Source: an uncultured Bacilli bacterium (lineage in GTDB: Bacteria; Bacillota_I; Bacilli_A; RF39; UBA660). From it: 54,153 nt of DNA. The notes beneath the pieces are model-generated. The model saw only the letters and a list, made by a program, of their open reading frames with translations, did no database searches and was not told where the DNA came from. Made by a program: the position numbers and the translations under genes. The first letter of the stretch is position 1. Each line of letters opens with the position of its first letter. Of this stretch, positions 1,294 to 33,729 are shown piece after piece. The stretch is from the NCBI GenBank assembly GCA_947626055.1, contig CANQQP010000003.1:1-54153 (forward strand), given 5' to 3'.

Positions 1294-2949
1294 TTATTTA
1301 AATATACTTCCACCAATAAATTCTCTTAATAACGAACTTTTCTCAACATACTCGGAAGGAATAGGATAAAAGATTTTTAAAAATTCAATTAATCTTTTAG
1401 CTTCTTCATACATATCCGATGATACAGGAACCGAATAAAGTAATGGTTCTACATATACTTTTAATACTCCTATTTCATATATTAAACTTGTATTTAGGAC
1501 ACTATCAACATCTTTCATAAAAGGAAATATAAATTCCTCTTCGCCTTTACGTACTAATTGCCAACTTTTTAAGGTTTCCTCAACATTTACAGAACGAAAC
1601 TGATTATCTCTAACTATTCGGCGAATCAAACGCAAATCTATAGTAGAAAGATGATTATGTCTATCAATAGCTAGTGGTGAAAAAGGCGAAACATATATTT
1701 TATAAATATTATTACTCGCTAAATTTTCTAATAAAGTGGGATTTAGAGCGTGATTTCCTTCCAAAATAATAATTGTTTTATCATCAATGGAGACCGCAGG
1801 AGAATTATATTCCTTTACTCCAAGACTAAAATTATATTTTGGTAAAATGACTTTTTCATGATTTACTAATTTTGTTAAATGTTTATTTAATAATTTAGTA
1901 TCTAAAAGTTTAATAGATTCAAAATCATGGTTTTTGACAACATCACGAGGCATCTGTGATTGATTTAAATAATAATCATCTAAAGAAATAGTAAATATCT
2001 TTAATCCATAGGCTTTTAAAGCTAAAGCTAGTTTCCTACTAGTCGTAGTTTTACCGGAAGAAGAAGGCCCGGCCATTAATACTAACTTAACATTTTCTCT
2101 AGTATAAATTTTTTCTGCTTCTTTCAAAATATTCTTTTGTAAATATAACTCATTAGTTCTAATAAAATCAGCAATCGTATTATGCGAAACCATCTTATTA
2201 ACATCAGCTACATAGGAAATATTTAAAGATGATATCCATTTTTTATATTCCGAAAAAGCACGCATATTTAAAGGATAATGATTGTATTTAGGTATTTCAT
2301 AATCGGCAGATATTACCGGAAATAGTAAAACAAATTTATTAGTACCTAGATAAACAATATCAAATTTATTTATACATTTAGTAGAATAAGGCATTTCGGT
2401 ATAAAAATAATTGTAATTATCTTTCAACTTATACATTACAACAAATTTATCTAAGACACCCTGAATAATTCGCGCTTTTTCTAATTCGTTAACATTTTGA
2501 TAATAATTTATAGCATCCTTTTTAGTAACGTTTATTTTTTTAAAAGGCAAATCAGCATTAATTATTTGCTTCATTTTTCTTTTTATTTTCTTTAAATCCT
2601 CATCATCTAAAATACAGTCATGTCTTATTGTAAAACAGATACCTTTATCAATTGAATGTTCAAAAAAAACTTGGGTACTTTTACCATATAATTCATTAAT
2701 AGCGACGATTAAAATATGTTTTAATCCACTTTTATAAATTTTATTACCATCTAAATCATTAGCATATAAAAATTCAATTTTTGAATTATCTTTAAGCTTT
2801 TCGTCATAACTAACGATTTCATTATTTATTTTTACTCCAATCACTGGATATTCACGTGAATTATTTTCCGCAATAAATTCTGTTAAATCAAGATTGGGAT
2901 TTATATATAATTTTTGATTTTCAAAATAGACTTTGATTTTATCCTTCAT
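1294..2949 (-). CDS. Uridine kinase-like nucleoside kinase with TGS/ThrRS-like N-terminus
   Basis: The 551-aa protein has a TGS-like ubiquitin fold at the N-terminus (about 1-65). A segment resembling the second additional domain of ThrRS/AlaRS follows (FTIRHDC near 106-112). The C-terminal P-loop kinase domain starts with the Walker A motif GPSSSGKTT at 294-302 and continues with SLDDYYLNQ, which binds nucleoside in the uridine kinase/phosphoribulokinase family. Known relatives in Firmicutes and Thermotoga are annotated only as nucleoside kinases. Phosphorylation of a nucleoside, probably uridine or cytidine, is inference from family. A GAGG-type RBS precedes the ATG. Confidence 0.85.
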   Translation of the reverse strand: MKDKIKVYFENQKLYINPNLDLTEFIAENNSREYPVIGVKINNEIVSYDEKLKDNSKIEFLYANDLDGNKIYKSGLKHILIVAINELYGKSTQVFFEHSIDKGICFTIRHDCILDDEDLKKIKRKMKQIINADLPFKKINVTKKDAINYYQNVNELEKARIIQGVLDKFVVMYKLKDNYNYFYTEMPYSTKCINKFDIVYLGTNKFVLLFPVISADYEIPKYNHYPLNMRAFSEYKKWISSLNISYVADVNKMVSHNTIADFIRTNELYLQKNILKEAEKIYTRENVKLVLMAGPSSSGKTTTSRKLALALKAYGLKIFTISLDDYYLNQSQMPRDVVKNHDFESIKLLDTKLLNKHLTKLVNHEKVILPKYNFSLGVKEYNSPAVSIDDKTIIILEGNHALNPTLLENLASNNIYKIYVSPFSPLAIDRHNHLSTIDLRLIRRIVRDNQFRSVNVEETLKSWQLVRKGEEEFIFPFMKDVDSVLNTSLIYEIGVLKVYVEPLLYSVPVSSDMYEEAKRLIEFLKIFYPIPSEYVEKSSLLREFIGGSIFK

Positions 2950-3083
2950 ATAACGCCTCTTTATTCTCTTATAATTTTATCAAATATATCTTTTTTTGAC
3001 AATTCATTTTTTTGTAATATTTTGTTGGTTTCTTTTAGTTATAAATCCGAGAAATATTACTAAATTAATATTAGGTGATTATT

Positions 3084-3653
3084 TTGAATTTAATTCCATA
3101 TGTCGTTGAACGTAATTTTAATAGTGAACGCAGTTATGATTTATATTCGCGCATGCTAAAAGATCGAATCGTTTTCTTAACGGGTGAAATTACTGATGAA
3201 AGTGCCAGTATTATTGTTTCTGAACTTTTATATTTAGATTCTTTAAATAATGAAGAAATTTGTTTATATATAAATAGTCCGGGTGGTAGTGTAACCGCCG
3301 GTTTTAGTATTTATGATACAATTAATTTTATTAAGAGTGATGTTAAAACAATTGTGATTGGCATGGCCGCATCGATGGCAGCTTTCTTATGTGCTAGTGG
3401 AACTAAAGGTAAACGCTGTGCTTTAAAAAATTCAGAAATCATGATTCATCAACCTTTAGGAGGAGCCCAAGGGCAAGCAACCGAAATCCAGATAGCAGCC
3501 GAAAGAATCATTAAATTAAAAGATAAGTTAAATCATATGCTCGCTACTTTAACTGGCCAAGATTTAAAAACAATTAAAAATGATACCGAAAGAGATAATT
3601 ATATGGATGCCCAAAGTGCTTTAGACTACGGCTTAATTGATGTCATTTTGTGA
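3084..3653 (+). CDS. clpP: ATP-dependent Clp protease proteolytic subunit
   Basis: Serine peptidase subunit that forms the tetradecameric ClpP barrel and works with Clp ATPases in cytosolic protein turnover. I chose the TTG at 3084 because AGGTGA (3073-3078) sits at RBS distance and the protein then begins MNLIPYVVE like other ClpP. The GTG at 3075 lies inside that RBS. With this start the triad falls at Ser97 (GMAASMAAF), His122 (MIHQPLGG) and Asp171, as in Bacillus. The protein is 189 aa and ends directly after LIDVIL, a short C-terminus. Its last 21 bp overlap the convergent whiA gene, with no terminator between them. Confidence 0.95.
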
Positions 3654-4577
3654 GGCTTTGGCTTGATGTCTTTTTACTAAATCACGCATTTTAATAAAAC
3701 AATGATTAACCCCTGATTTACCAATAGGTTTACCAGTTTCACTACTAATTATTTCCGCAAGTTCTAAAAAAGAGACATCGGGATATTTTTCGCGATATTT
3801 TATAACATCTTTAGTTCGTTCATCTAGAAGATCTATTAAATTATGTTCTTTTAAATAATTAATATTTTCTATCTGAACCATTCCGGTTTTAATAGTCTTT
3901 TCTTGATTGGCTAACTCACAATTATTTAAACGATTAACCATATTTTTATGATCGCGATATATTCTAATATCTTCAAAATAAAATAAAGAATTAATAGCAT
4001 TAAACATTTTAATAATATCACTTATATTCTCTGCACTTTTAAGATAAATCATATACCGATTATTTCTTTTTAATATTTTCGTTGGAATATCTAATTCTTT
4101 TAAAATCTTACTAAAATATATGGCATCTTTTTTTGCATGCACAACAAATTCCATATGATAGCCACTTACTTTAGGATCGTTGACGCTACCACATGCTAAA
4201 AATAACCCTTGAATAAAAGCAATTTTATCTTCTTTGTTTTCTAATAAATACTCCTCAGGAGCTATTTTTTTATTATTCTTAAATATACAAAGATCTTCTA
4301 AAATAAAGGGTACTTGATCTTTTATTTCTAATATATATATTTGCTTTGTCCTAAATCTTTTTTGAATACGCACGGTAACATATATATTGACATGATAGAG
4401 ATTTTTGATTATTTTGTACATTCTTCGCGCCACGGAAGCATTTTCCATAACCAATTCGATTTTTTCTTTATCATATTTACCATCATATCTAATAAAAGCC
4501 GATAATTCACTTCTAACAGTTACATAGTCAAATGGAAGTTTCGAAATTTCTTCTTTAATTCGAGTCGTAAAAGTCAT
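3633..4577 (-). CDS. whiA: WhiA-family DNA-binding regulator
   Basis: The 314-aa protein matches the WhiA family: a degenerate LAGLIDADG homing-endonuclease-like N-terminal domain (about residues 10-210) and a C-terminal helix-turn-helix domain (about 225-305, with [20 protein letters not shown]). In actinobacteria WhiA controls sporulation genes; in Bacillus it affects division and chromosome segregation. Its ATG overlaps the yvcK stop as ATGA, so the genes are translationally coupled, the usual yvcK-whiA arrangement. The 3' end overlaps convergent clpP, a neighbour also found in Bacillus. Confidence 0.92.
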
Positions 4578-5527
4578 ACTAATTCATCCATTAAATAAGA
4601 AAATATTAGATAAGCCGTTTTTAAACTATCATGTCTTAAAACATTATCTTCTATTTTATATATTTTATCTTCAATTAATTTTACTCCCATTTTTTCGACT
4701 GTCTTTTTATCTAAGATTACAGGATCTTTTTGCTCTTCCGTAGCATATTTTTTGACTAAATAAGCGGACATTTTACTATTATTAGCAATAATTGCATCTA
4801 GTCCACCCTCTCCTAAATATTTTTGAAAAACCTTAATATGATCACTGACTTTAAAATTATCGGTTTCACCTGGTTGAGTAACCAGATTACAGACGTATAA
4901 AGTTTTAGCATGGGAAGCATTTATCGCCTTTTGGATTTCTTCTAAAACAATATGGGGCATAACACTTGTATATAAACTTCCACAAGAAAAAATAATTAAA
5001 TCGGCTTTATTTAAAGCTTTAAAGATTTCGGGATTAATTTTAAATTTTTTATCATAAAATATCTCATCAATTTTCGTTTTAGCTTCCGTAATTTGGCTTT
5101 CACCAATGATATATTCACCATATTCAGTTTTGCCGATTAAATCCACTGCTTCTTCAGTTAAAGGTAATACTGTACCCTGAATATTAAACAATTTACACAA
5201 AATAGGAATGGAATGGGCAAAATCACCCTTAATATCTAGTAAAGCTGTTAATAATAAATTTTTAATCGAATGGTTCGCTAATTTAGAATTTTTAGCAAAA
5301 CGATAATTTAATAGTTCCGTATTATCAGCATCAGTATTAGCCATGGATAAAAGCACTTTCGAAATGTCACCGACCGCTGGAATATCAAACTCTTTCCGTA
5401 GGTCGCCTGTACTACGACCATTATCAGCAACACTTACAACTGCTGTTACATTTACAGGAAACAACTTTAAGCCTTTTAGTAGTTGAGAAAGTCCACTTCC
5501 CCCGCCGAAGATAACAATGTTCTTCAT
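4574..5527 (-). CDS. yvcK: YvcK/CofD-like UDP-sugar-binding protein
   Basis: Gluconeogenesis-factor family protein. In Bacillus YvcK binds UDP-GlcNAc and is needed for growth and morphology on gluconeogenic carbon. The N-terminal motif GGGSGLSQLLKGL and the segment SVADNGRSTGDLR are diagnostic of the CofD-like Rossmann fold. I chose the ATG at 5527 (317 aa, MKNIVIFGGG) because an upstream in-frame GTG lies inside the RBS AGGTGAT. It is coupled to whiA by a 4-bp overlap. Confidence 0.92.
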   Translation of the reverse strand: MKNIVIFGGGSGLSQLLKGLKLFPVNVTAVVSVADNGRSTGDLRKEFDIPAVGDISKVLLSMANTDADNTELLNYRFAKNSKLANHSIKNLLLTALLDIKGDFAHSIPILCKLFNIQGTVLPLTEEAVDLIGKTEYGEYIIGESQITEAKTKIDEIFYDKKFKINPEIFKALNKADLIIFSCGSLYTSVMPHIVLEEIQKAINASHAKTLYVCNLVTQPGETDNFKVSDHIKVFQKYLGEGGLDAIIANNSKMSAYLVKKYATEEQKDPVILDKKTVEKMGVKLIEDKIYKIEDNVLRHDSLKTAYLIFSYLMDELV

Positions 5528-5589
5528 CTTTATCACCTACTTAAATATATGATAACATACTTCCTATTTTGTTGCTAGAATTAAAGAAC

Positions 5590-6618
5590 TTAATTTATTT
5601 TATACGGATTATTAAGAGTCCCATCCCCCGCAATTAAAGGAGTATCCTTTTTTAAATTAATTACAGGATAAACATCTAAGTTAGAACCAATTTTATAATC
5701 AGCTCCATTATTGATATAAACAGAATTTTCGGACTTAGAAGACATGGTCCACCAAGTTTTAGTCATATCTAGATAAGTTTCTTGATTATTTATTTTACTT
5801 AATTCTACTTCATCTTTAGTCAGTAAGCCAATTTTTAAATTAACATTAGTTGAGGAACAATTTAAACTATCAGTGCCATTTTCATTCGAATTATTACAGA
5901 ACAATCCTGCCTCGAGATATTTTTCGTAATCTTTTAAATTTTTAGTATAAAAATCATTTAGATAATTTTGAATACTATCGGCACTATTGGAATCAGTTAT
6001 ACTATAAATAGATTGCCCAATTGTTTCATTAGTAATTAATCTGATAGTTTGATCCCCATTAATACGCACAACACGCCATAAAATATTAGCAAAAGAAACA
6101 TAGTTATTATCCACATTGCCTTTATAGTATAAAGACTCTCCTAAATCATCAGTAGTAACATATAGCCCTTTATTTTTCGTCGCTATTTGTTCATTACTTA
6201 TCTTAGTGGCTAAGCCTAATTCATTTAATTTAAAATTAATTGTACACTCCGTATTTTTAGTAGCTCTTATAGTTAAATGATTTTGGCCACTTTCAAAAGA
6301 AGCTTTTTGATTATTCGTACAACTTAAATTGTCATAAACATAGCCATTATTAGGCTCTATCGTAATACTAGTTAAGGCATTATAACTCGCTTGAACCTCA
6401 GCTTTAGCTGTATATCCGTTATTAACAACTAAACTAATTTTAATTTTTTGCTCTTCCGGAGAGTTTTTACTGGCAAGTTTAACTACAGAGTAGGTAAGAA
6501 TTATGCCAATAGTTAGGATACATATTCCAATAATTATCGATATTCCTACTTTTAAACTTCCTAAATACTTTTGCAATTTTTGTAATTCTTTTTCCGCATC
6601 AAAACTTCTTTTTGCCAT
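5590..6618 (-). CDS. Membrane-anchored DUF6273-like surface protein (paralog 1)
   Basis: Not characterised. The 342-aa protein starts at the ATG preceded by GAGGGCG. It has a cytosolic charged N-terminus and one TM helix (about 26-48). An extracellular module with the GYxYxxxxC motif (PNNGYVYDNLSC) resembles bacterial surface repeat domains. The C-terminal domain runs WRVVRINGDQTIRLI ... GLLTKDEVELS ... WWTMSS ... YPVINL ... GDGTLNNPYKI. The same order recurs in the genes at 20438 and 32551, so this is a three-member family. The C-terminal domain resembles DUF6273/formylglycine-enzyme-like folds from memory. The membrane topology is clear; the function is unknown. Confidence 0.75.
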   Translation of the reverse strand: MAKRSFDAEKELQKLQKYLGSLKVGISIIIGICILTIGIILTYSVVKLASKNSPEEQKIKISLVVNNGYTAKAEVQASYNALTSITIEPNNGYVYDNLSCTNNQKASFESGQNHLTIRATKNTECTINFKLNELGLATKISNEQIATKNKGLYVTTDDLGESLYYKGNVDNNYVSFANILWRVVRINGDQTIRLITNETIGQSIYSITDSNSADSIQNYLNDFYTKNLKDYEKYLEAGLFCNNSNENGTDSLNCSSTNVNLKIGLLTKDEVELSKINNQETYLDMTKTWWTMSSKSENSVYINNGADYKIGSNLDVYPVINLKKDTPLIAGDGTLNNPYKIN

Positions 6619-6671
6619 AACTCGCCCTCTCATTCTATTATTATTTTACAATATAAAAAGAGGATTGTAAA

Positions 6672-9370: not shown

Positions 9371-10193
9371 TTTCCTCACCTGCACTTTCTTCATCATCAT
9401 CTTCATCAGCATCATAGAACATTTCGGTTTTTGGTTTTAATTCATCAATTAAAGTCATTTTGAAATCATCTAAAGTTAAATTATATTTCATATTACCATC
9501 AACAGCAATACTGATGCGACCAGTTTCTTCAGAAACAATTAAAGCAATGGCATCAGTTTCTTCGGCCACTCCTAACGCCGCTCTATGACGCGTACCTAGA
9601 CGTTTACTTAAAGTAGGATCCATACTCGTTTTAAATACTGATCCTGCACAAGTTATTCTATCCCCTTGAATAATGACACCACCATCATGTAACGGATTAT
9701 TAGGGAAGAATATTGTTCCTAGTAAAGCACTAGAAACATCAGCATAAATCTTTGTAGCTGGATCAATATATTCTTGTAAAGAAATATCTCTTTCAATAAC
9801 AATTAAAGCGCCAATACGATTTTTCTTTAAATATTCAATAGCGTCCATGATTTCATAAACAACGCGTTCTCTTTCATCAACAGTTAAAATTTTATGACGT
9901 CCTAATAAATTAGTACGACCAATCGATTCTAAGACATTACGAATTTCGGGTTGAAAAATAATAATTAAAGCTAACGGTCCCCAAGATAGAACATATTCTA
10001 GTAATAAACCAACAGTATATAAATCTAAAAGGGAACTAATTAGTTTAATAACTAATATTAAAATTACACCCTTAACAATTAAAACCATTTTTATATTATT
10101 TTTTACATTTTTTAAAATAAAATAAAACATTAACCAGACAATAGAAATATCAAGTATTTTTGTAATAATCGACCATAAAGTTGTTAATGTCAT
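9363..10193 (-). CDS. cdaA: Diadenylate cyclase CdaA
   Basis: Makes c-di-AMP from two ATP at the membrane. The 276-aa protein has three N-terminal TM segments (about 15-95) and a DAC domain. The RHR motif is at 202-204 (GTRHRAALG). The catalytic DGA motif reads DGG here (PLHDGGVII, Asp170), a conservative substitution at the third position. The C-terminus is an acidic tail. It is translationally coupled to cdaR. c-di-AMP controls potassium and osmolyte balance and wall homeostasis in Bacilli. Confidence 0.93.
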   Translation of the reverse strand: MTLTTLWSIITKILDISIVWLMFYFILKNVKNNIKMVLIVKGVILILVIKLISSLLDLYTVGLLLEYVLSWGPLALIIIFQPEIRNVLESIGRTNLLGRHKILTVDERERVVYEIMDAIEYLKKNRIGALIVIERDISLQEYIDPATKIYADVSSALLGTIFFPNNPLHDGGVIIQGDRITCAGSVFKTSMDPTLSKRLGTRHRAALGVAEETDAIALIVSEETGRISIAVDGNMKYNLTLDDFKMTLIDELKPKTEMFYDADEDDDEESAGEENA

Positions 10194-10297: not shown

Positions 10298-10684
10298 TTA
10301 CTTATTTTCATTATTCTCATCTTTCATTAAAGGCATATCATATCCATCATTATTAGGAGTTATTTCAATAGGTGCACTCACAACTTCCTTGTTATTAACT
10401 TCTAATTTTTCGGTTTGTTGTTCTTGCTCTTGTCTCATCGCCTCTTCGACAGTTGGCGTATTATCTTCTATTATATCTTCTTTTTTACCTTTTTTATCTT
10501 TCTTCTCTTTTTTCTTTTTTTCTTTTTTAGGTTTAGGCTCTTTAGGTACTACCTCTTTATCCTTAGGTTCTTTTGGTAATTTACTAGTATCGACAAGATA
10601 ACCTATTAAAGCAAATAATAGAACCCCTGATATAACTAAGAACCAAATGTAATTATCAATAAGAAAATTTATAAATACTTCCAT
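10298..10684 (-). CDS. Small membrane protein with charged Lys/Glu tail
   Basis: Not recognised. The 128-aa protein has one N-terminal TM helix (about 10-32, WFLVISGVLLFALIGYLV). A long cytosolic tail follows, first very lysine-rich with KEPK repeats (about 38-70), then acidic and Gln/Glu-rich, likely disordered. A canonical AGGAGG RBS supports translation. It lies between the cdaAR pair and the YerB-like gene, on the same strand as both. A weak stem (10282-10299) follows the stop. Confidence 0.6.
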   Translation of the reverse strand: MEVFINFLIDNYIWFLVISGVLLFALIGYLVDTSKLPKEPKDKEVVPKEPKPKKEKKKKEKKDKKGKKEDIIEDNTPTVEEAMRQEQEQQTEKLEVNNKEVVSAPIEITPNNDGYDMPLMKDENNENK

Positions 10685-10718: not shown

Positions 10719-11759
10719 TTAAGAAATACTTAACTCTTGATTTTCCGGTTGAATTTGAATATAGGTATTACCATCATTAACTTTGATTTCTTGCCCATTT
10801 TCATCTTTATAAATAGTTTTACTACTACGAGATGATTTTTCCCAAGTAATAGGGATGGCATAACCATTAGTAATGTAGTAACCACTACCACTACCTACAG
10901 TATCTATATCTTGTCTACCTTTATCATCAATAGTTTGATTAGCTAATTTATAAGTAATTATATTTTTAGCTGTGTATTGTTTTTTCGTCACATAATCGAC
11001 ATGTTCTTCCCCATTGACATATCTTTTATAAACTTTATTTTCTGCATCATAAACATAACTAGTCTTGGCATAGTTAGAATAAGGAATTTCAATGTTATTA
11101 GCAACTTGGGCCGTTTCTTTAGAACTTAAGTCAATGTTATCAACATTGTAATTTAATAAGGTAGACTGCTTGGAAGTACTGCGATATTCTAAATGGGAAA
11201 TGGCTTTTTTAATAAGTTCCATAGATGTATAACCAGTATGTTCACTAGATACTCTTAAACTTTTATCACGAAAGAAATACGTACCTTCGTAAGTTAATCC
11301 ATTTAGGTTATTAACCCCTAAAGTTTTGATATCACTTTGCGCTTGAGGAGACCAACCCCAATGGACATAGACCGCATCATTTTCTAAAGCATAATCTAAA
11401 AAATAATGACGTGCACTACGAACAGAACCAATTTTTTCGGTATTTTGATCTTTGAACACCGCCATCATGCGGGTTATACCACCTTCAACTACGATTTCGT
11501 AAACTAAGTATGCATCATCTAAGCCACTATGGTATGGACGCGCTTGATTATGATTATTAATCATAACGGCAATTGGTCTTTCATTAGAATCTTCATTGAT
11601 AATATTTAATTTCTTCACAGGTTCTTTTACTTTTTTAACTTTATTAATGATTTCATCATTTTTAAAAAGATAGAAATACGCAAAAAAACCAACTAAGCAT
11701 AACAATAAAATAGCAATTATGGTAATAAATATCTTTTTCTTCTTTTTTCTTTTCTTCAT
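10719..11759 (-). CDS. DUF3048 (YerB-like) membrane-anchored protein
   Basis: Matches the YerB/DUF3048 family by the motif RPIAVMINNHNQARPYHSGLDDA and the region RMMAVF...IGSVRSARHYFLDYA. The 346-aa form starts at the ATG at 11759; earlier in-frame starts would add sequence overlapping the smpB terminator. The N-terminus is a poly-Lys stretch plus one TM helix (about 11-32), so this copy is TM-anchored with no lipobox. The family is extracytoplasmic and of unclear function. Confidence 0.8.
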   Translation of the reverse strand: MKKRKKKKKIFITIIAILLLCLVGFFAYFYLFKNDEIINKVKKVKEPVKKLNIINEDSNERPIAVMINNHNQARPYHSGLDDAYLVYEIVVEGGITRMMAVFKDQNTEKIGSVRSARHYFLDYALENDAVYVHWGWSPQAQSDIKTLGVNNLNGLTYEGTYFFRDKSLRVSSEHTGYTSMELIKKAISHLEYRSTSKQSTLLNYNVDNIDLSSKETAQVANNIEIPYSNYAKTSYVYDAENKVYKRYVNGEEHVDYVTKKQYTAKNIITYKLANQTIDDKGRQDIDTVGSGSGYYITNGYAIPITWEKSSRSSKTIYKDENGQEIKVNDGNTYIQIQPENQELSIS

Positions 11760-11814
11760 GAGTAACACACTTTCTACTATAACAAGTTTATCAAATTGGT
11801 CTCTTAAAGTCCAT

Positions 11815-11848
11815 AAAAAAAATATTAAAAGCAATTTAATATTTTTTA
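11815..11848 (-). terminator. Terminator of the secG-rnr-smpB unit
   Basis: A 9-bp AT-rich stem (821-829 with 835-843 in the 11.8-kb block, loop around GCAA) is followed on the minus strand by a run of U. It overlaps the smpB stop codon. Confidence 0.75.
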
Positions 11849-12283
11849 ATAATTCTCAAGATTTCGTCTTTGTTCTCTTTCTAGATCTTTTTTCTTTAAA
11901 CTTTCTCTTTTATCGTAAAGCTTTTTTCCTTTAGCTACGCCAATTAATAATTTCGCATAATTTTTTTTGAAATAAAGTTTTAAAGGAATTAAACTATATC
12001 CATCTTGCGTAATAGCTTCCTTGATTTTTTTAATTTCTTTTTTATGCAAAAGCAGTTTTCTTTCTCTTCTTTCTTCATGATTAAAGATATTACCTTGTTC
12101 ATATTTAGCAATGTACATGTTAATAACATATACTTCTTCGTTTTTAAGGCGAGCAAAACTATCTTTAAGATTTACAGAGCCATTACGAATCGCTTTGATT
12201 TCCGTACCTTTAAGTTCAATCCCGGCTTCGTACTCTTTAATGATTTCATAGTCAAAATAAGCTTTTTTATTTTTTATTTCCAT
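11846..12283 (-). CDS. smpB: SsrA-binding protein SmpB
   Basis: Binds tmRNA and delivers it to stalled ribosomes in trans-translation. The 145-aa protein has the OB-fold pattern KAYFDYEIIKEYEAGIELKGTEIKAIR, then YI..Y..GN.FNHEE.R.RKLLLHK, and the basic C-terminal tail (KGKKLYDKRESLKKKD) that inserts in the decoding centre. Its start lies inside the last codons of rnr (17-bp overlap), the usual rnr-smpB coupling. No tmRNA gene was seen in this window. Confidence 0.96.
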   Translation of the reverse strand: MEIKNKKAYFDYEIIKEYEAGIELKGTEIKAIRNGSVNLKDSFARLKNEEVYVINMYIAKYEQGNIFNHEERRERKLLLHKKEIKKIKEAITQDGYSLIPLKLYFKKNYAKLLIGVAKGKKLYDKRESLKKKDLEREQRRNLENY

Positions 12284-14381
12284 CTTGTTTGTCCTCTACT
12301 ATTTCAAAATCAACTTGGGAAGCTTCTTTACTAGCTCCGATACATTTTACTCTAATTGTATCTCCTAAACGATAAGTTTTTTTGGTAGACTTTCCGACCA
12401 TCGCTAAAAGTTCCGGAACATAATTGAAGTAGTCGCCTTTTAAAGATTTAACGTGAACTAAGCCTTCGACTAAATTAGGTAACTCGACAAACATGCCAAA
12501 ATTAGTAATCGTATTGATAAAGCCCTCATATTCCTGTCCAATATGATCTTCCATATATTCGGCCATTTTCATATCGTTTACTTCTCTTTCGGCATCCACC
12601 GCTGCTCGTTCTCTTTCCGAAGAATGCTCGGCAATTTCGACTAAGGATGATTCTAAGTTGGCAATGGTCGTCATACTCATATCTTTTTCAATTAAATATT
12701 TTTTTAATAAGCGATGAACCGTTAAGTCCGGAAAACGCCTAATAGGAGAAGTAAAATGGGTATAAGTAGGACTAGCTAGACCAAAATGGCCAATATTATC
12801 TTTACTATAAATTGCTTTTTTCATACTTCTTAAAAGAATAGATGATAAGATAGGAAATTCTTTTTTATCTTTAAGTTGGTTTAAAATTAGTTGCATACCT
12901 TTGGGGGTTAGGTCATTTATTTTGCCTCCAATTTTATATCCTAATAAATGAACTAAAGTTAAAAATTCATCAATTTTATCACTATTAGGTTTATCATGAA
13001 CACGATAGATAAATGGTAAATTCATATTATAAATATGGGTAGCCACACATTCATTGGCAGCAATCATAAAGTCTTCAATTAAGTTTTCCCCTTCTTTTTG
13101 CTCCCTTTTTTTAATATCGATAGCTTTCCCAGTTTCATCTTGAATAATTTTCGCTTCCTCAGCTTCAAAATTGATGTAACCACGCTCATTTTTCTTTTTT
13201 CTTAAAATATGAGCAAATTCGTTCATTGCTAGTAAAGTATCTTTAAATTCTTCATAACCAGCAGGGGTTACATGATCAATTAAAATGGAATTAACATCAT
13301 CGTAATTCATCTTTTTGGCGGATTTAATATAACTTTCAAAAATATCATAATTTAAAAGTTTTCCTTGATTATCATATTCCATAACACAAGACATAGCTAA
13401 TCTAATAACCCCTTCATTTAAGGAGCAAATACCATTAGAAAGTTTATGAGGCAACATGGGAATTACGGTGTCAGCTAAATAAGAAGATGTCCCTCTATTA
13501 TAAGCATCATCTCCTAAAGCTGTATTTTCTTTAACATAATGCGAAACATCAGCAATGTGAACACCTAAAACATATAAATCGCCTTTTTTCTTTAAGGAAA
13601 TAGCATCATCAATATCTTTAGTGTCTTTGCCATCAATCGTAAATATAACTTCGCCAGTTAAATCGCGACGCCCCACAAGATCTTTGGGATCGACTTCATC
13701 GGGTAACTTTTCGACCTCGGCTAAGACTTCAGGCGTATACTTATCATAGATTTCATGTTTATAAGCAATGCTTAAAATATCGATACCTGGATCATCTTTA
13801 TGACCAAGGATACTTAAGACTTTACCGGCATATTTATTATGACCTAAATCTTTGGTAATTTCGACTAAGACTTTGTGTCCTTCTACACAATTATGAAGGG
13901 AATCTGGATCTAAAATAACGGTTATTTCCTTTTTAGTTTCATCTAACTTAAAACCTAAGCCCTCTTCAGTTTTAATTATTTCTCCCACTAAATTTTTTAA
14001 TTCTCTTTTAATTATTCTTAAGACTCTACCTTCTTTTTTCAAAGCCTTGTTAATAACTTCAATTAAAACAATATCTCCATCAATGGCTCCGTTTAAATTC
14101 TTCGCATCAATATAAATATCATCTTCTTTATCTAATATTAAAAAACCAAAACCTTTTTTATTAATAGCGACTTTCCCTACTTTAATACCTGGACAATTTT
14201 CTAAAAGAATATATTTATCTTTCTTAGTTTTATAAAGAAGACATTCTTGCACAAGATTTTCTAATTCTTCAGTTAATTCTTGATACTCTACGGTCGTTTT
14301 AAATCCCAACATATCATTGATTTCGATTGGGTCTAAAGCTTTGTGAATGTCTTTTAATGCTTCTATTATTTCCTCTTTCAT
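12267..14381 (-). CDS. rnr: Ribonuclease R
   Basis: Processive 3'-5' exoribonuclease of 704 aa that degrades structured RNA and participates in tmRNA-linked quality control. Domains in order: N-terminal helix-turn-helix, two cold-shock domains (about 60-225), the RNB catalytic domain with the metal-binding motif DGKDTKDIDDAISL, and a C-terminal S1 domain (about 615-695, EYEGFINTITNFGMFVEL). All four catalytic aspartates of the motif are present. It overlaps smpB and lies downstream of secG, whose terminator may allow partial readthrough. Confidence 0.96.
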   Translation of the reverse strand: MKEEIIEALKDIHKALDPIEINDMLGFKTTVEYQELTEELENLVQECLLYKTKKDKYILLENCPGIKVGKVAINKKGFGFLILDKEDDIYIDAKNLNGAIDGDIVLIEVINKALKKEGRVLRIIKRELKNLVGEIIKTEEGLGFKLDETKKEITVILDPDSLHNCVEGHKVLVEITKDLGHNKYAGKVLSILGHKDDPGIDILSIAYKHEIYDKYTPEVLAEVEKLPDEVDPKDLVGRRDLTGEVIFTIDGKDTKDIDDAISLKKKGDLYVLGVHIADVSHYVKENTALGDDAYNRGTSSYLADTVIPMLPHKLSNGICSLNEGVIRLAMSCVMEYDNQGKLLNYDIFESYIKSAKKMNYDDVNSILIDHVTPAGYEEFKDTLLAMNEFAHILRKKKNERGYINFEAEEAKIIQDETGKAIDIKKREQKEGENLIEDFMIAANECVATHIYNMNLPFIYRVHDKPNSDKIDEFLTLVHLLGYKIGGKINDLTPKGMQLILNQLKDKKEFPILSSILLRSMKKAIYSKDNIGHFGLASPTYTHFTSPIRRFPDLTVHRLLKKYLIEKDMSMTTIANLESSLVEIAEHSSERERAAVDAEREVNDMKMAEYMEDHIGQEYEGFINTITNFGMFVELPNLVEGLVHVKSLKGDYFNYVPELLAMVGKSTKKTYRLGDTIRVKCIGASKEASQVDFEIVEDKQDGNKK

Positions 14382-15938: not shown

Positions 15939-17180
15939 TTATTTATTTTCGGATGTCAAATTTTCTTCGATACGTAATAAACGATTATATTTAGCAATGC
16001 GTTCACCGCGACATAAAGAACCGGTTTTAATGTAAGGAATACTTAATCCCACTGCTAAATCAGCAATAAAGGTATCTTCTGTTTCGCCACTACGATGGGA
16101 AATAATCATTTGATAATTATTTTTCTTCGCCAGCATTATAGTCTCAATCATTTCGGTAATAGTTCCAACTTGATTAGCTTTTAATAAAATCGCATTCCCC
16201 GCTTTTTCATTTATCGCTTTTTGTAAATATTCTTTATTCGTAACAAAATAATCATCCCCTACAAGTAAAATCTTATTTTGCATTAATCTCGTAAGTTCAC
16301 TTAAGTGAGCAAAGTCATCTTCATTAAAAGCATCTTCAATCGAAATAATAGGATACTCACTAACTAGTTTTTGATAGTATATCATTAATTCTTCCGGTGT
16401 TAATTCTCTTTTATCAATATGATATTTATTCGTCGTTTTATCATAGATTTCACTCGCAGCAACATCTAGAGCAATAAAAACATCTCTTTTAGGAGCATAG
16501 CCACTTTCAATAATCGCTTTAGTTATTAAGTCTAGGGCTTCTAAGTTAGTATTTAACTGAGGTGCAAAGCCACCTTCATCACCAACAGAAGTAATTTGTC
16601 CTTTTTCTTTTAGCAGTTTTTTTAATGTTGCAAATATCTCCGCCCCCGCACGCAAACGTTCTTTAAAACTTTTAACAACGGGCACAATCATAAATTCTTG
16701 AATTTCTAAACCGGAATCGGCGTGTTTACCACCATTAATGACATTCATCATCGGAATTGGTAAAGTTACTTGACCCGTTGAAACATATTCATATAATTCT
16801 TTATTTTCATTTAAAGCTCCCGCTTTTAAACAAGCTAAAGAAACAGCTAAGATTGCATTAGCACCTAAATTACTTTTATATTTAGTTCCATCTAAATTAA
16901 TTAGAGTCTGATCAATCTTCGCTTGATATAATTCTTGCCCTACTAAAGCCGGTTTTATTATGGTGTTAATATTATTAACAGCTTTTAAAACTCCTTTACC
17001 TTGATATCTATTTTTATCTAAATCTCTTAATTCTAAAGCTTCTTTAGATCCCGTAGAAGCACCCGAAGGAACTGAAGCTGTCGCTTTTAATCCATTATCT
17101 AAAATAACATCGGCTTCCACAGTGGGATTGCCGCGAGAATCTAATATTTCTCTTGCTCTAATATCTTTAATTACTGCCAT
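15939..17180 (-). CDS. eno: Enolase
   Basis: Glycolytic enzyme converting 2-phosphoglycerate to phosphoenolpyruvate. The 413 residues include the N-terminal motif AREILDSRGNPTVE, GASTGSKEA, the catalytic-Glu loop SVGDEGGFAPQL, metal-ligand regions and the C-terminal signature ISHRSGETEDTFIADLAVG. It is complete, slightly shorter than the usual ~430 aa. It is apparently monocistronic apart from readthrough into the 382-aa gene. Confidence 0.97.
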   Translation of the reverse strand: MAVIKDIRAREILDSRGNPTVEADVILDNGLKATASVPSGASTGSKEALELRDLDKNRYQGKGVLKAVNNINTIIKPALVGQELYQAKIDQTLINLDGTKYKSNLGANAILAVSLACLKAGALNENKELYEYVSTGQVTLPIPMMNVINGGKHADSGLEIQEFMIVPVVKSFKERLRAGAEIFATLKKLLKEKGQITSVGDEGGFAPQLNTNLEALDLITKAIIESGYAPKRDVFIALDVAASEIYDKTTNKYHIDKRELTPEELMIYYQKLVSEYPIISIEDAFNEDDFAHLSELTRLMQNKILLVGDDYFVTNKEYLQKAINEKAGNAILLKANQVGTITEMIETIMLAKKNNYQMIISHRSGETEDTFIADLAVGLSIPYIKTGSLCRGERIAKYNRLLRIEENLTSENK

Positions 17181-17245
17181 TTAATCACCCTTTTATCTAT
17201 ATTCTTAGTATACTCTAATTTAAATCTTTATTCAATAATTAGCAC

Positions 17246-17271
17246 AAAAAAAGAGTTTATTTAATAAACTC
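17246..17271 (-). terminator. Terminator of the DUF308 gene
   Basis: A stem of about 8 bp between 17253 and 17271 overlaps the DUF308 stop codon and is followed by a seven-U run on the minus strand. Confidence 0.75.
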
Positions 17272-17817
17272 AATTATTTCTTTAGAACGTTTTTTTACAA
17301 GTAACCAATGCATGATATCTAATATCGCATAAACTATGACAAAGATACCAACTACTTGGGTCATAACCATGGTACTTTTAAAAGGATTAAATATTAATAA
17401 AGCTCCCGATAATAAAGTTAAAATCCCAATAAATAAAAGCAATGTCCAAGTTTCCTCTTTATATTTTTTTAAAAATATTCCCGAATTAATTTTCATGATA
17501 CCATTAATAATCATCCAAATTCCTAAACCGATTGTCACAATTGAACTAATTGATAAAGGATTAAATATAATAGCAATCCCCGCAATAAGAGTAATAATTC
17601 CATATATTAATTCAAAACTAATGTATTTTACTTCTTTTTTAACTGTAAAATAATTGATAAGAGAAACTACTCCGGATACAAGGATTAATCCTCCGACAAA
17701 ATATCCAATTAAGGAATTGGCCATTTTCGGTTTAATAAATAAAAATATTCCAAAAGCTAAAAATAATAAAGCCGAAAACCATGAGCCATATATTAATTTA
17801 TTAATTTTTGATTTCAT
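17257..17817 (-). CDS. DUF308/HdeD-family membrane protein
   Basis: The 186-aa integral membrane protein has about six TM helices in three repeated hairpins. Each repeat contains the pattern G.l.l..G...i.nP (IFLFIKPKMANSLI, IAIIFNPLSISSIV, LLIFNPFKSTMVM), typical of the DUF308/HdeD family. HdeD has been linked to acid stress in enterobacteria, but the role in Firmicutes is unknown. It has its own terminator and is divergent from the Fem-family gene. Confidence 0.85.
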   Translation of the reverse strand: MKSKINKLIYGSWFSALLFLAFGIFLFIKPKMANSLIGYFVGGLILVSGVVSLINYFTVKKEVKYISFELIYGIITLIAGIAIIFNPLSISSIVTIGLGIWMIINGIMKINSGIFLKKYKEETWTLLLFIGILTLLSGALLIFNPFKSTMVMTQVVGIFVIVYAILDIMHWLLVKKRSKEIIEFIK

Positions 17818-17920
17818 CTTTCCATCTCCTGGTTTTATTATAAATAATTTTCGTTAGTTTGACAATTGATTTTTACTATTACTTATGTTATTATACTCTA
17901 ATTTATGAAGGAGGATTCGT

Positions 17921-19153
17921 ATGTTAAAAGAGATAACAATGTTTGAATTTCAAGATTTTGCTCAAGATCATCCCTTAGCTAGTTTTTATCAAACTCCCAA
18001 TTATGCAATTTTTAAAAGTGAAGATGACTTTGATTATGATTATCTTGGTTATTATGAAAATAATCAATTAGTAGCAGCCACTTTAATGATTTATAAAAAT
18101 ATTACATTTACAAGTAAATATGCTTATGCTCCCCGCGGCTTTTTAATGGACTACCAAAATTTAAATCTATTACAAAATTTTACGAAGGAATTAAAAAAAT
18201 ATTTAAAAAAGAAAAAAATAGTTTTCTTAAAAATTGATCCTTTATTAATAATGCGAAAATACGATCCTACTACCAAAGCTCTAACTTATCAAGAAGCTAC
18301 TAATTATAAAAATATTTTTGAAGAGTTAGGCTATAAAAAACTAAAAGATAACTTATATTTTGAATCTTCCTTACCCCGTTTTGATGGCTATATTGATTTA
18401 AAAAAATATGAATTTTCTAACTTAAATAAAAACACCCGTAATAAAATTAACAATTCAATAAAAAAAGGTCTGGAATTAATACAAGGAACTCGAGAAGATT
18501 TAGAGATTATTTATAAATTTTTAGAAAAACAAAATAACTTTAATTTTAAACATTATAATGATTTATATAAAGCTTTTGCTAGTGATAATCTAATGGACTT
18601 ATTTTTAGTCAAAGTTGATTATGAACAATTTATGGCTAATGCCAAAAATGCTTATGAAAAAGAACTTGAAAAAAATAATATTTATAATGAAAAATTAAAA
18701 CAAAATCCTACCGAAAAAAATCTGCGTCAGAAAATGCTTTCGGATAAATTACTCGTTACTTATAAAAATGAAATCATGGCCGCCTCATCCAAGTATACTG
18801 ATAACGAATTACAAGAATATATCGCCGGCGCTTTAGTTATTAAAACAAAAGACACCGCCACGATAGTTTATAGCGGCTACGAAAAGAGATATCGTCATCT
18901 AAATGCTAATTATTTTTTACATAATGCTTTAATCAATTATTATAAAGATAATTACGATTATTTAGATTTAAATGGTCTTGCCGGGGACTTTACTCCTAAT
19001 AATCCTTATCATGGTTTAAATGAATTTAAATTAGGTTTTAAACCACTATTTTATGAATATATTGGTGAATTAGATTTAATTATTAATGATAAAGCTTATA
19101 ATAATTTATTACTTACCGGTAAATTACATCAAATATTTGACAAAAAAGCCTAA
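17921..19153 (+). CDS. FemABX-family peptidoglycan bridge aminoacyltransferase
   Basis: Adds an amino acid from aminoacyl-tRNA to the stem peptide of lipid II or peptidoglycan. The 410-aa protein shows two GNAT-like halves (YAPRGFLMDY...; the second half with AGALVIKTKDTATIVYSG and YLDLNGLAGDF). A coiled-coil insertion (about 240-275, KNAYEKELEKNN) is typical of Fem ligases acting on tRNA. A strong GGAGG RBS precedes the ATG. Which residue it adds cannot be told from sequence. It converges on a beta-lactamase-like gene with a shared terminator. Confidence 0.88.
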   Translation: MLKEITMFEFQDFAQDHPLASFYQTPNYAIFKSEDDFDYDYLGYYENNQLVAATLMIYKNITFTSKYAYAPRGFLMDYQNLNLLQNFTKELKKYLKKKKIVFLKIDPLLIMRKYDPTTKALTYQEATNYKNIFEELGYKKLKDNLYFESSLPRFDGYIDLKKYEFSNLNKNTRNKINNSIKKGLELIQGTREDLEIIYKFLEKQNNFNFKHYNDLYKAFASDNLMDLFLVKVDYEQFMANAKNAYEKELEKNNIYNEKLKQNPTEKNLRQKMLSDKLLVTYKNEIMAASSKYTDNELQEYIAGALVIKTKDTATIVYSGYEKRYRHLNANYFLHNALINYYKDNYDYLDLNGLAGDFTPNNPYHGLNEFKLGFKPLFYEYIGELDLIINDKAYNNLLLTGKLHQIFDKKA

Positions 19154-19173
19154 AGTTAATTCTTTAGGTTTTT
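19142..19173. terminator. Shared bidirectional terminator of the Fem and beta-lactamase-like genes
   Basis: An A-rich/T-rich stem with core CCTAAAG/CTTTAGG is flanked by A6 and T5. Both convergent stop codons (19151-19153 and 19156-19158) lie inside the hairpin, so one element serves both genes. Confidence 0.8.
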
Positions 19174-20136
19174 ACATGTCTCCAAACGATAATTTTTAAA
19201 TTCTTGATGTAAATCATTAATTCTTTTCGAAATATCATTAACAATCTTTATATAATCATTATGACCATGCGTAGTTAAAATAGCTACTAAGTAAGGATTT
19301 TCATCATAAACAATCCCAATATCATGAAAATATTCGTTATACTCCCCATATTTATGACCAACATCAACATCTAAGCCCGGATATTTTAAGGCATTTTCCT
19401 CGGCTTCTAACATAAAGCTTTTTAACTCACTACCTAACTCTTGATTATTTTCCATAAAATCATAAATATTTTGTAAATAAATAATGGCATCATCGGCGCT
19501 TATTTCTCCAAAATTATCCCCACCAACTAAAGTATGGGTAGCACCTAAAGAATTACCATAGCTTTTAAGAGTATTAAAGCCAATATAATTTAAAAGCATC
19601 CTATGCGCCGTATTATCGCTATAAATAATAGCATATTTAACTAAAGTTCTTAAACTTATCTCTTCCCCATAATTATGTTGACTCATTCCTTTACTAGCCC
19701 CTTCACGCAAGTTTGCACTATAAGTCATTGTTTCATCTAAACTTAACTCATTATTAGCAGCTTTGGTATAAATATACAAAGCGTCTAATAACTTAATGGT
19801 ACTAGCAGCATATAAAGCATTATCTGCTTTATATGCATAAGTAAATCCGGTTTTAAGATCTACATATTTAACACTCATTCGATAATTATTGTTTATATAT
19901 GTATCTAATTCACTTACATCAATTTCATTATTATAAGGAGCATTTAAACAAGCTTGATATTTCTTTTCTTTTTCTTCTTTCCCTTTATTTAATATATCAA
20001 TAGATTCAATCTTTTCTTTAACATCTTTAACAATTTTAAAATCTTTAAAATAATTATAAATTCCAGGAACAAAGTAAAAAAAAGTCCCAATAATTAAGAA
20101 AAAGAATAATATTTTAACCCAAGGCTTTAATCTCAT
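19156..20136 (-). CDS. Class A beta-lactamase-like serine hydrolase, membrane-anchored
   Basis: The 326-aa protein (ATG at 20136, purine-rich RBS) has an N-terminal TM anchor (about 8-25) and an extracellular transpeptidase-fold domain of the Beta-lactamase2 type. The active-site SxxK is STIK (Ser112, Lys115) and the SDN motif is at 173-175. The third box, normally KTG, reads HKYGE (Lys262-Tyr263-Gly264), and no ExxLN omega-loop motif is evident. Without that loop a true beta-lactamase is doubtful; a wall-related peptidase is equally possible. Its facing neighbour is a peptidoglycan ligase. Confidence 0.75.
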   Translation of the reverse strand: MRLKPWVKILFFFLIIGTFFYFVPGIYNYFKDFKIVKDVKEKIESIDILNKGKEEKEKKYQACLNAPYNNEIDVSELDTYINNNYRMSVKYVDLKTGFTYAYKADNALYAASTIKLLDALYIYTKAANNELSLDETMTYSANLREGASKGMSQHNYGEEISLRTLVKYAIIYSDNTAHRMLLNYIGFNTLKSYGNSLGATHTLVGGDNFGEISADDAIIYLQNIYDFMENNQELGSELKSFMLEAEENALKYPGLDVDVGHKYGEYNEYFHDIGIVYDENPYLVAILTTHGHNDYIKIVNDISKRINDLHQEFKNYRLETCKNLKN

Positions 20137-20220
20137 ATAAATGCTTCTTTCTTTTGAATAAATATAGAATATCATATATTTATATTTCTTACAACTTGGT
20201 AATATGTTGTTTTACATTGT

Positions 20221-20244
20221 AAAAACAATGGTTTTCACCATTGT
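20221..20244 (-). terminator. Terminator after the template-repeat-like copy
   Basis: A perfect 8-bp stem (20225-20232 with 20237-20244) carries a GAAA tetraloop on the minus strand and is followed by five U. It would give a defined 3' end to RNA carrying the repeat at 20252-20295. Confidence 0.75.
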
Positions 20245-20251
20245 TAGAGTA

Positions 20252-20295
20252 CCGTTAAAGCCGTTAGCATTATTAGTATTTGAATTGTTAGGCGA
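20252..20295 (-). repeat. Template-repeat-like copy of the paralog 2 tip (candidate DGR TR)
   Basis: These 44 nt align without gaps to 20577-20620 inside the upstream surface gene, with 33 identities. Of the 11 differences, 9 are adenines on the coding strand here, and only 2 of 28 non-adenine positions differ. Read in the frame of the gene it encodes SPNNSNTNNANGFNG-like sequence, full of AAY codons, where the gene has SPYYSYLTYARGFYG. Weaker similarity with a 1-nt gap extends towards 20228. It has no open frame of its own. It is either the template of a diversity-generating retroelement or a decayed partial duplicate; no reverse transcriptase is visible here. Confidence 0.5.
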
Positions 20296-20427
20296 CGAGA
20301 AAAAGCACGCACTGTTTTATATTTATCCCTATATAAACTTCTGTTTATACCTTTTTTATTTTGTTTATTCGGACCAAACTTTGACTAAAGCATTGTTTGG
20401 ACATCTCTTCGTTTTTGTTTACACTCT

Positions 20428-20453
20428 TGTAATAAGCCTATTGGCTTATTACA
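20428..20453 (-). other. Long hairpin over the stop codon of paralog 2
   Basis: A perfect 11-bp inverted repeat with a 4-nt loop (20428-20438 with 20443-20453) contains the TAG stop of the upstream gene. No strong U-run follows, so it is a poor terminator. Hairpins just 3' of variable repeats are known in diversity-generating retroelements. It could also be a leaky terminator or a 3' stabiliser. Confidence 0.55.
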
Positions 20454-21916
20454 AATGGCTTATCTTTTGTCCCTTCTCCGGTGGCTTTTAGTCCACTAGT
20501 GCTTAGATTGATAACTGGACGCACACCGTTTGCAGTATTGACATCGTCGACGTTCAAGTCACGATAACTCAGGTAGCCGTAAAAGCCGCGAGCATAAGTC
20601 AAATATGAATAGTAAGGCGACAAGCTCCAGAACCACCTATAAGAAGAACCTGTATATAGATAATTGGAGGTTGTTGGATATGGACTATTAGTAGTTGGCT
20701 TAAATCCCGCTAGCACTATTTCATCGGCACTTAGTAATCCTATCTTTAATTTATATACTCCTCCATATGTATGATTTCCATTAGATGTATCCGATAACGG
20801 ATTGTTACCTGCTGTTGGATCTGGGCACGTTAGTATAGGGGTAACTGGTTTACTACTGTTATACATTCCTCTTTCGTATGCTCCGTAATATATATCGGTT
20901 CCTTCACTTCCACTTCCAAAAGACGTATCATTACAATATATTCCATATGTTATATATCTATCATAATTTCTTAAATTATCATAATACCATGCTTCTAATT
21001 TTTTCTTTATGGTACTATTTGTTCCCCCATGATTTGTTGTTTCTATACTTTCTTCGACATTTGTTGCTATTTCTATACTTCGGCACGGATTGCTGTTTGT
21101 ACAGGGTGGGTTATTATAGTATGTGTAACCTGCATATATTCTTGAATTACCTGTACTGTTAAATGCACTTGTCCCTATATCCCCATTTAATACTAATCTT
21201 ATCGTCCCATCTCCATTGACTCTCACTATTCGCCAATTATTATTAGCAAATTTAACATAGTTATCTTTTGCTTCTCCTCGGAAGTAATAACTTGTTCCTC
21301 CTGGAGTAGTATAATTTAAAGATCCACTAGTATTTTGATAGTCACTCATTTTGTATACTCCACTACATGCATCACCATCATTTAATGGGCAGCCAGTTTT
21401 AAAATTATCAGAAGTTGGTGATGTGGATTTTGCTGTTCGTATTATATCAGCTTTTATCTCTTCTAATGTCCTTACTCGTTCATATTCTACAGTACATGTT
21501 ACATCATTTATTGTTCTTGGTGTTATTCTCAAAGTGTTGTTTGAAAATGATACACTAACCTTGCTTGTTACATTTTGATTAGAAGTATCTTTGCAACTTA
21601 TACTTTTATATTGGTATCCTGTATCTGGTGTTAGTTTAAATGTTGAAGCACTATTATAATCAGTTTGAGCTGTGGCGTACTCCATGGAATCTACTTTCCC
21701 ATTTCCATTACTATATACTTCTATTGTTATCTTCTTACTTACTGTTGCATTTATGTTTAATACTGTACTAGGATTGGATGTATAATACGCATACGATACT
21801 CCTATTACTGTTCCTATTACTAATATTAGTGCTACTATTCCTAATTTTAGTTTTGGATTATATATTCCTTTTTTCTGCGCTTTCTTTATTTCTTTTTCTA
21901 TTCTCTTTTCTTTCAT
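20438..21916 (-). CDS. DUF6273-like surface protein with variable Tyr-rich tip (paralog 2)
   Basis: Not characterised. The 492-aa protein has a charged N-terminus (MKEKRIEKEIKKAQKKG) and one hydrophobic segment (about 25-46) ending in SYAYYT, like SipW-type secretion signals. A GYQYKSISC-type surface module follows (about 60-150). The C-terminal domain runs YYFRGEAKDNYVKFANNNWRIVRVNGDG, then GLLSADEIVLAG, WFWSLSPYYSY, GVRPVINLST and GEGTKDKPFVIS. The segment around residues 430-450 is rich in Tyr and is the part copied downstream at 20252-20295. GGAGG lies 6 nt before the ATG. Its first 136 nt are nearly identical to paralog 3. Confidence 0.75.
   Translation of the reverse strand: MKEKRIEKEIKKAQKKGIYNPKLKLGIVALILVIGTVIGVSYAYYTSNPSTVLNINATVSKKITIEVYSNGNGKVDSMEYATAQTDYNSASTFKLTPDTGYQYKSISCKDTSNQNVTSKVSVSFSNNTLRITPRTINDVTCTVEYERVRTLEEIKADIIRTAKSTSPTSDNFKTGCPLNDGDACSGVYKMSDYQNTSGSLNYTTPGGTSYYFRGEAKDNYVKFANNNWRIVRVNGDGTIRLVLNGDIGTSAFNSTGNSRIYAGYTYYNNPPCTNSNPCRSIEIATNVEESIETTNHGGTNSTIKKKLEAWYYDNLRNYDRYITYGIYCNDTSFGSGSEGTDIYYGAYERGMYNSSKPVTPILTCPDPTAGNNPLSDTSNGNHTYGGVYKLKIGLLSADEIVLAGFKPTTNSPYPTTSNYLYTGSSYRWFWSLSPYYSYLTYARGFYGYLSYRDLNVDDVNTANGVRPVINLSTSGLKATGEGTKDKPFVISQ
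20577..20620 (-). repeat. Variable-repeat-like segment in paralog 2 (candidate DGR VR)
   Basis: Partner of the copy at 20252-20295. It encodes the WSLSPYYSYLTYARGFYG tip just ahead of the GVRPVINL core. Asn codons of the copy become Tyr, Thr and Arg codons here mostly by changes at A. Placement near the C-terminus in a probable lectin/formylglycine-enzyme-like domain fits known DGR targets. Confidence 0.5.
21781..21916 (-). repeat. 136-nt near-identical 5' repeat (copy in paralog 2)
   Basis: The first 136 coding nt match 33594-33729 in paralog 3 with only five differences by my count, while the rest of the genes is far more diverged. This suggests recent duplication or gene conversion of the secretion/anchor segment. 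Confidence 0.85.
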
Positions 21917-32550: not shown

Positions 32551-33729
32551 TTAAAATATTACATATGGATTATCCTTTATTCCACTTCCATAAGCATATA
32601 CATTTGAATTTAAGACAATTACTGGTCGTAAATACGCAAACGCACTATTCCAGTCATACATTGCGTAGTCATTTTTAGAAATATAATATTTATAATAAGT
32701 GTCTATCACACCAATATCTGGATCAACGTAAGTTCCTCTATAACAGGACATTGTCCACCAAGGGTTACTATTTTTAAGTTGTAAATAACTTTGCATATTT
32801 TTTTCTAATAATCCAGCATCCATTACTTCATTTATGGTTAATAGGCCTATATATGAATTAATGGTATTAATAGTATAAAAATCCTCTAAATCAGTTTTGG
32901 AGGAAGAAGAATTATAGATGTAATTTTTTTTAATAATGTTTTTACTATCATAAAGATATTTATTATACCAGTCATTTAATGCATTATGTTCAATTGAATC
33001 AATAAAGTCTCCATTTTCATAATATATTTTATCATTTAATAAAGTATTTAAAACAAGCAATATATTCTCATCTTCATTTATTTCTACTATTCGCCAGATT
33101 AAATCTGTTGGATGATTAGGTGAATCAATTGTAGTACCTAGTCCAAATTTAACATAATTATTTTCTGCTGCTCCACGAAAATAATAACTATTTTTATTGT
33201 TAGTTGTTCTTTTATATAATCCATTCCACACTAAATTTTCACCTGGAGTTGCTATTCTTATCGTATTGGCTTTCTTAATTTCATCTACTAATTTTACTAC
33301 CTTGGTAAATATTACTGTACAACTTACATTATTTATTGTTTTTGGTGTTATTGTTAAGGTATTATTACTTCTATCGTAAATTGGTGTGACTTTATTACTG
33401 TCTGTACATGTTACTTCTTTATATTGGTATCCTTCGGCTGGTGTTAGTTTAAATTTTGCTGATGTTCCATAATCTGTTTGCTTGGTCGCAATATCCATAG
33501 ATTCTACTGCTCCATGCTCGCCTGCTTCTACTCTAATATTTATTCTTTTACTTACTGTTCCGGATATTGTTAATGTATTATTTGCTGTTCCTGTATAATA
33601 TGCATACGATACTCCTATTACTGTTCCTATTACTAATATTAGTGCTACTATTCCTAATTTTAATTTGGGATTATATATTCCTTTTTTTTGGGCTTTCTTT
33701 ATTTCTTTTTCTATTCTCTTTTCTTTCAT
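32551..33729 (-). CDS. DUF6273-like surface protein under phase-variable promoter (paralog 3)
   Basis: Not characterised. The 392-aa protein shares its first ~45 residues with paralog 2 almost exactly, including the SYAYYT end of the hydrophobic segment. A surface module with GYQYKEVTC follows (about 60-145), then a C-terminal domain YYFRGAAENNYVKFG ... LIWRIVEINEDENILLVLN ... IGLLTINEVMDAGL ... WWTMS ... LRPVIVLNS ... GSGIKDNPYVIF. The tip between WWTMS and LRPV is Tyr/Asp-rich and unlike those of the other paralogs. The promoter contains a G9 tract, so expression probably switches. Confidence 0.75.
   Translation of the reverse strand: MKEKRIEKEIKKAQKKGIYNPKLKLGIVALILVIGTVIGVSYAYYTGTANNTLTISGTVSKRINIRVEAGEHGAVESMDIATKQTDYGTSAKFKLTPAEGYQYKEVTCTDSNKVTPIYDRSNNTLTITPKTINNVSCTVIFTKVVKLVDEIKKANTIRIATPGENLVWNGLYKRTTNNKNSYYFRGAAENNYVKFGLGTTIDSPNHPTDLIWRIVEINEDENILLVLNTLLNDKIYYENGDFIDSIEHNALNDWYNKYLYDSKNIIKKNYIYNSSSSKTDLEDFYTINTINSYIGLLTINEVMDAGLLEKNMQSYLQLKNSNPWWTMSCYRGTYVDPDIGVIDTYYKYYISKNDYAMYDWNSAFAYLRPVIVLNSNVYAYGSGIKDNPYVIF
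33594..33729 (-). repeat. 136-nt near-identical 5' repeat (copy in paralog 3)
   Basis: Partner of 21781-21916, with five differences over 136 nt by my count. It covers the start codon, charged N-terminus and signal/anchor helix. Confidence 0.85.

Follow-up and report, generated by a model that had tools for sequence, protein, structure and literature searches.

Among described diversity-generating retroelements (DGRs), the cis-type element of the Bordetella phage BPP-1 offers the closest comparison for the locus reported here. The BPP-1 spacer brings in bRT-Avd and provides the primer at IMH* (PMC12875486), and a hairpin/cruciform over the mtd stop codon is needed for target recognition (PMC3240598). 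Degenerate loci and trans diversification have been described in Thiohalocapsa PB-PSB1 which, like the group studied here, has several DGR loci in one genome, some of them having lost RT or TR (template repeat), with some targets apparently served in trans (PMC10907252). The losses in Thiohalocapsa are tied to transposons and MITE-like arrays, whereas those in our Bacilli look like plain deletions starting in the 5' half of the TR, and unlike in Thiohalocapsa the targets here belong to a single large paralogous family of surface-type proteins (PMC10907252). Leftover or remote targets are also described in the part of the Treponema denticola account considered here, which shares with our genomes dispersed targets, strains that have lost RT and TR yet keep target genes, and targets that remain from an earlier template type; that part of the account describes no truncated TR remnants, whereas at our locus a part of the template itself remains, and an ortholog reveals what has gone (PMC4891356). 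The locus adds a further degenerate DGR to those known and does not represent a new kind of system.

The window, a stretch of 54,153 nucleotides from the genome of an uncultured Bacilli bacterium, contains a target gene at 20438..21916 on the minus strand, as are all features of this locus given below. It encodes a 492-aa protein in which an N-terminal hydrophobic (membrane-anchor-like) segment is followed by an Ig/prealbumin-like region and a C-terminal variable domain. Sequence searches of the protein against PDB and NCBIfam gave no useful match, and Ig-like domains dominate the results of a fold search with the whole protein. For the variable domain, which yielded a confident model (pLDDT 89.8), the sole significant PDB match is the IgA peptidase 9qa6, with C-type lectin matches found only at E above 2. 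Paralogues of the target are numerous, with 22 matches in the window's genome and 10 to 41 in each genus relative. Two further, shorter paralogues lie in the window at 32551-33729 and 5590-6633, with no adjoining TR noticed, and the former is 65% identical to the target gene over the first 162 residues. A scan tolerating changes only at template adenines found no local TR within about 1.5 kb of other paralogues in the same genome.

The first-pass annotation had aligned a non-coding copy at 20252-20295 to the gene tip at 20577-20620 (33/44 identical, ungapped), had counted changes at 9 of 16 adenines and 2 of 28 other bases, and had read the copy as a possible DGR template. Both the match and the adenine bias, with minus as the coding strand, were exactly reproduced (Fisher one-sided p = 6e-4 within the 44 nt), and the repeat proved one base longer, running for 45 nt (20252-20296 versus 20577-20621) from a GTCGCC start at 20296. 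This pair of near-repeats with adenine-specific differences is the top pair of its locus in the adenine-tolerant scan, and the ungapped score of the copy against the gene tip is 24, whereas 300 dinucleotide-shuffled versions of the non-coding stretch reached 18 at most. Other matches of the copy in the same genome (contigs C2, C29, C4, C25 and C57) are located inside or next to unrelated genes and appear to be chance matches. In comparison with full cassettes, the gene tip has the form of a 108-nt variable region (VR, 20513..20620) that ends in the IMH-like GGTGTGCGTCCAGTT and is followed by a hairpin across the stop codon, which by inspection has a 12-bp stem and a 4-nt loop (20427..20454), one pair longer than the 11 bp first described. 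Its position is similar to that of the BPP-1 mtd hairpin/cruciform (PMC3240598). The TR copy covers only 45 of the 108 nt of the VR, since all that is left of a TR of ~105 nt is positions 1-45; IMH* and spacer RNA are absent. The template reading of the first-pass annotation was right in identifying a DGR template repeat and its VR, but a usable template is not supported: the 3' half, IMH*, spacer, avd and RT have been deleted and are kept in an ortholog, and where a decay of similarity beyond the 44 nt had been described there is instead a sharp deletion junction.

The ortholog lies on contig C13 of the sister genome G004, where a leader, full TR, spacer RNA, avd and RT are followed in this order by the window's beta-lactamase-like gene and the next gene. 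The downstream flank of the window locus (16001..20197; its first gene, beta-lactamase-like, at 19156-20175) begins in G004 directly after the RT gene, and 20197..16001 of the window aligns to 2007..6198 of the G004 contig at 95.1% identity over 4198 nt. On the other side, 20538..20252 aligns through the leader at 82% identity. Between these flanks, a first junction at 20247..20251 stands where G004 has 302 nt comprising the TR 3' half with IMH* and the spacer RNA. There follows a hairpin, AACAATGGTGAAAACCATTG (20220..20246), orthologous to the one directly upstream of avd in G004 (616-642, 96% over 27 nt), and then a second gap, where G004 holds 1364 nt with avd and RT (both lengths being taken from alignment coordinates) and the window has nothing or crumbs, namely 15 + 7 nt of possible RT gene sequence at 20198..20219 that rest on a weak, gapped alignment. 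About 1.67 kb is missing from the window in all. Comparison of the orthologous loci shows the deletion, and its direction, loss in the window and not gain in G004, rests on the leftover hairpin and TR fragment. Since it is orthologous to the pre-avd hairpin, the GAAA-loop hairpin is part of the old element; it had been taken for a terminator, and while the hairpin is real, a consensus terminator scan found no site there.

The full G004 TR matches the window VR over its whole length, differing from it at 20/42 adenines and 6/66 other positions (p=7.5e-6), and so accounts for the entire 108 nt. The VR of the G004 element itself falls off its contig, and the G004 RT reading frame is split in two, so the G004 element too may be inactive, or its assembly faulty. 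In genus members G001, G002 and G006, the orthologous sites carry no target or DGR beside the beta-lactamase-like gene; for G005, the sequence compared ends at that gene. G004 has the tuf-side flank of the window gene on contig C9 (L118, 7062-10025) and the beta-lactamase-side flank on C13 (L102); the two flanks apparently belong to two different target genes, a split that suggests recombination between paralogous targets.

Based on these comparisons, we put the probability that a DGR collapsed at the window locus at roughly 90%. A complete element with target gene, leader, TR, spacer RNA, avd and RT would formerly have occupied the site and rewritten the target tip through reverse transcription with errors at template adenines, a past activity to which the adenine-biased TR/VR difference and the membership in the DGR family both point. 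About 1.67 kb would then have been lost in at least two pieces, one from TR position 46 to the pre-avd hairpin and the other from avd to the end of RT, leaving behind the gene, its leader, 45 nt of the TR and one hairpin. Unlike BPP-1, the window locus has no RT, Avd, IMH* or spacer. Because it lacks the IMH* and spacer that in BPP-1 recruit Avd-RT and prime cDNA synthesis, we expect the remnant to be inert and the VR to be frozen, which makes a recent fossil the most likely reading of the locus.

Could the leftover transcript have been kept for another job? Retention of the TR leader (20297..20437) bears on this. It contains two hairpins, one at about 20372-20402 with 8 pairs supported by compensatory changes over 16 cassettes and a second conserved one, GTATAAAC..GTTTATATAGGGATAAATCT, at about 20330-20352; an Rfam search of the region returned no known RNA family. 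Across the genus, fragments of the window's leader and TR start turn up again, forming clear cassettes in 7/9 genomes, and eight cassettes are collapsed: that of the window, G003:C6, C14 and C47, G004:C4 and C26, G002:C23 and G006:C17. The left breakpoint falls in the 5' half of the TR in all eight, at positions about 20 to 59 of about 105, and none of them has one in the 3' half of the TR or in the proximal spacer. G003:C47 and G004:C26 probably record one deletion event, as they have a common downstream flank, which leaves about seven events. The non-coding leader is present in every one of the eight and is partly decayed only in G004:C26, the collapsed G006:C17 and G002:C23 also retain distal spacer sequence, and the window's TR remnant is 43/44 identical to the full G004 TR, compared with 82-87% for the leader, which could hint at retained function. 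Leader, TR 5' end and hairpin might on this basis serve to end or stabilise the target mRNA, or act as a decoy RNA for an Avd-RT encoded elsewhere in the genome (below). We consider this unlikely, given that retention may merely reflect a recent deletion and that the consensus terminator scan yielded no site.

The sole RVT_1 match in a profile search of the genome lies on contig C19, and the earlier observation that the window holds no RT or Avd is correct. On C19 the proposed genome-wide search for both was answered by a DGR (locus L002, minus strand) with a target gene at 10730-12304, a TR at 10473-10578, avd at 9814-10167 and RT at 8730-9833. The C19 RT has as its best PDB match 8ub7, 'Reverse transcriptase' (1.2e-27), which we take to belong to the BPP-1 DGR structure series, and matches the PHROG phage RT family at 4e-79. 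The neighboring small ORF is recognized as Avd by both PHROG (2.4e-7) and NCBIfam (1.7e-6) models, and TR and VR differ by 14 adenine changes and 1 other change in 106 nt. With an RT, an Avd, a full TR with spacer and a target VR in which almost only adenines have changed, C19 carries a DGR that, with its own template, is apparently intact; a counterpart of the window's stop-codon hairpin spans the stop of its target. The RT related in sequence to 8ub7, the Avd and the adenine-specific TR/VR change are likenesses to BPP-1, as are the IMH-like end, the structured spacer after the TR and the hairpin after the VR that spans the stop codon (PMC3240598, PMC12875486). Gene order in the fuller relatives is target, TR, spacer, avd and RT, whereas in BPP-1 avd precedes the TR (PMC12875486). 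An RT of the C19 type also occurs in 'Lapin' MAGs of uncultured Bacilli and in Candidatus Caccenecus avistercoris. As a donor for the window VR, the C19 template was rejected, its sequence being different and without a match above threshold, and it matched no other VR in the genome above threshold either. A working template for the window VR was not found in the genome, which is 86% complete, so that a matching full template could be missing. The gene tip in the window is probably frozen, though the genome retains a complete DGR at another site. The C19 locus has its ortholog at G004:C4, where deletion has left only the last codons of the RT, and G004:C13 carries the fuller form of the window element; the window's genome and G004 have therefore lost opposite elements.

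An apparently intact RT and Avd in the genome would allow the window copy to serve as a live satellite template, with the C19 proteins acting on it in trans to diversify the tip of the adjacent gene. Such action is plausible in this genus. In G001, three intact target-TR-spacer cassettes without a local RT (C8, C11 and C17; L111, L112 and L113) accompany an RT-Avd on C16 that stands alone without TR, spacer or target (L114, 5773-7210) and is the only one found in that genome; the C11 TR/VR pair differs by 15 adenine and 0 other changes. This layout is best explained by trans action of RT-Avd, with assembly gaps a possibility that remains. All nine full TRs of the genus are followed by an invariant CCAGATTCCTACT and then by a structured spacer, whose RNA is strongly conserved and covarying; in the window's genome, a search for it matched only C19. 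The window copy, unlike the G001 satellites, has lost the IMH* and spacer that all nine keep. Together with its span of only 45 of 108 VR nt and the two non-adenine changes inside 44 nt, this makes a live satellite template very improbable.

Paralogue-rich regions break MAG assemblies, and several target genes lie at contig ends, so one might suppose that the deletion is an assembly artefact and that the real genome has a full DGR at the locus. The contig, however, is continuous and keeps short orthologous segments in their order (the 27-nt hairpin separates the two losses), and other genomes show comparable collapses whose breakpoints differ; we regard an artefact as most improbable. That the copy arose as an ordinary duplicate of the gene tip and has since decayed, with no relation to a DGR, as might be expected with so many paralogues, is next to impossible and already refuted by the orthologous locus, given that the copy does not code for protein, follows a leader common to RT-linked TRs, is orthologous to a full TR ahead of avd and RT, and differs from the tip in an adenine-specific way.

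With the collapsed-DGR reading in place, the window locus and its G004 ortholog provide a before-and-after pair of DGR death, one species having the locus with its element and its sister a 1.67-kb loss. This pair makes it testable how bacteria switch off targeted hypermutation yet keep the selected receptor. It also follows that scans demanding a nearby RT miss loci of this kind. More tentatively, and at somewhat less than even odds, the window may be a retired cassette of a Bacilli lineage with split DGRs, in which a lone RT-Avd beside housekeeping genes would serve dispersed target-plus-template cassettes in trans. Retirement would proceed by deletions that start in the TR 5' half and leave a frozen surface gene with its leader, giving cycles of diversifying, freezing and discarding over a large paralogous surface family.

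Lone RT-Avd pairs are also seen in more distant Bacilli (L162-L164, L168, L170, L171, L173 and L180), unlike most RT relatives from other phyla. An ungapped scan, which missed one known gapped case (L160), found no TR/VR near these pairs in flanks of up to about 6 kb, and a spacer model found no match among the 150 candidates scored per genome in six of these genomes. The loci described here point to a little-studied group of gut Bacilli with numerous surface genes of DGR type, template cassettes that lack an RT and an array of seven templates. The last of these, in a more distant relative at L161 (JAQXHT010000051.1), has seven TR-plus-spacer units in tandem, flanked by one target gene on one side and avd-RT on the other, with motif positions 597, 1002, 1409, 1805, 2262, 2674 and 3690. 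Its templates differ among themselves with only a weak bias to adenine positions, and its VR corresponds to the fifth TR with 15 adenine and 0 other changes.
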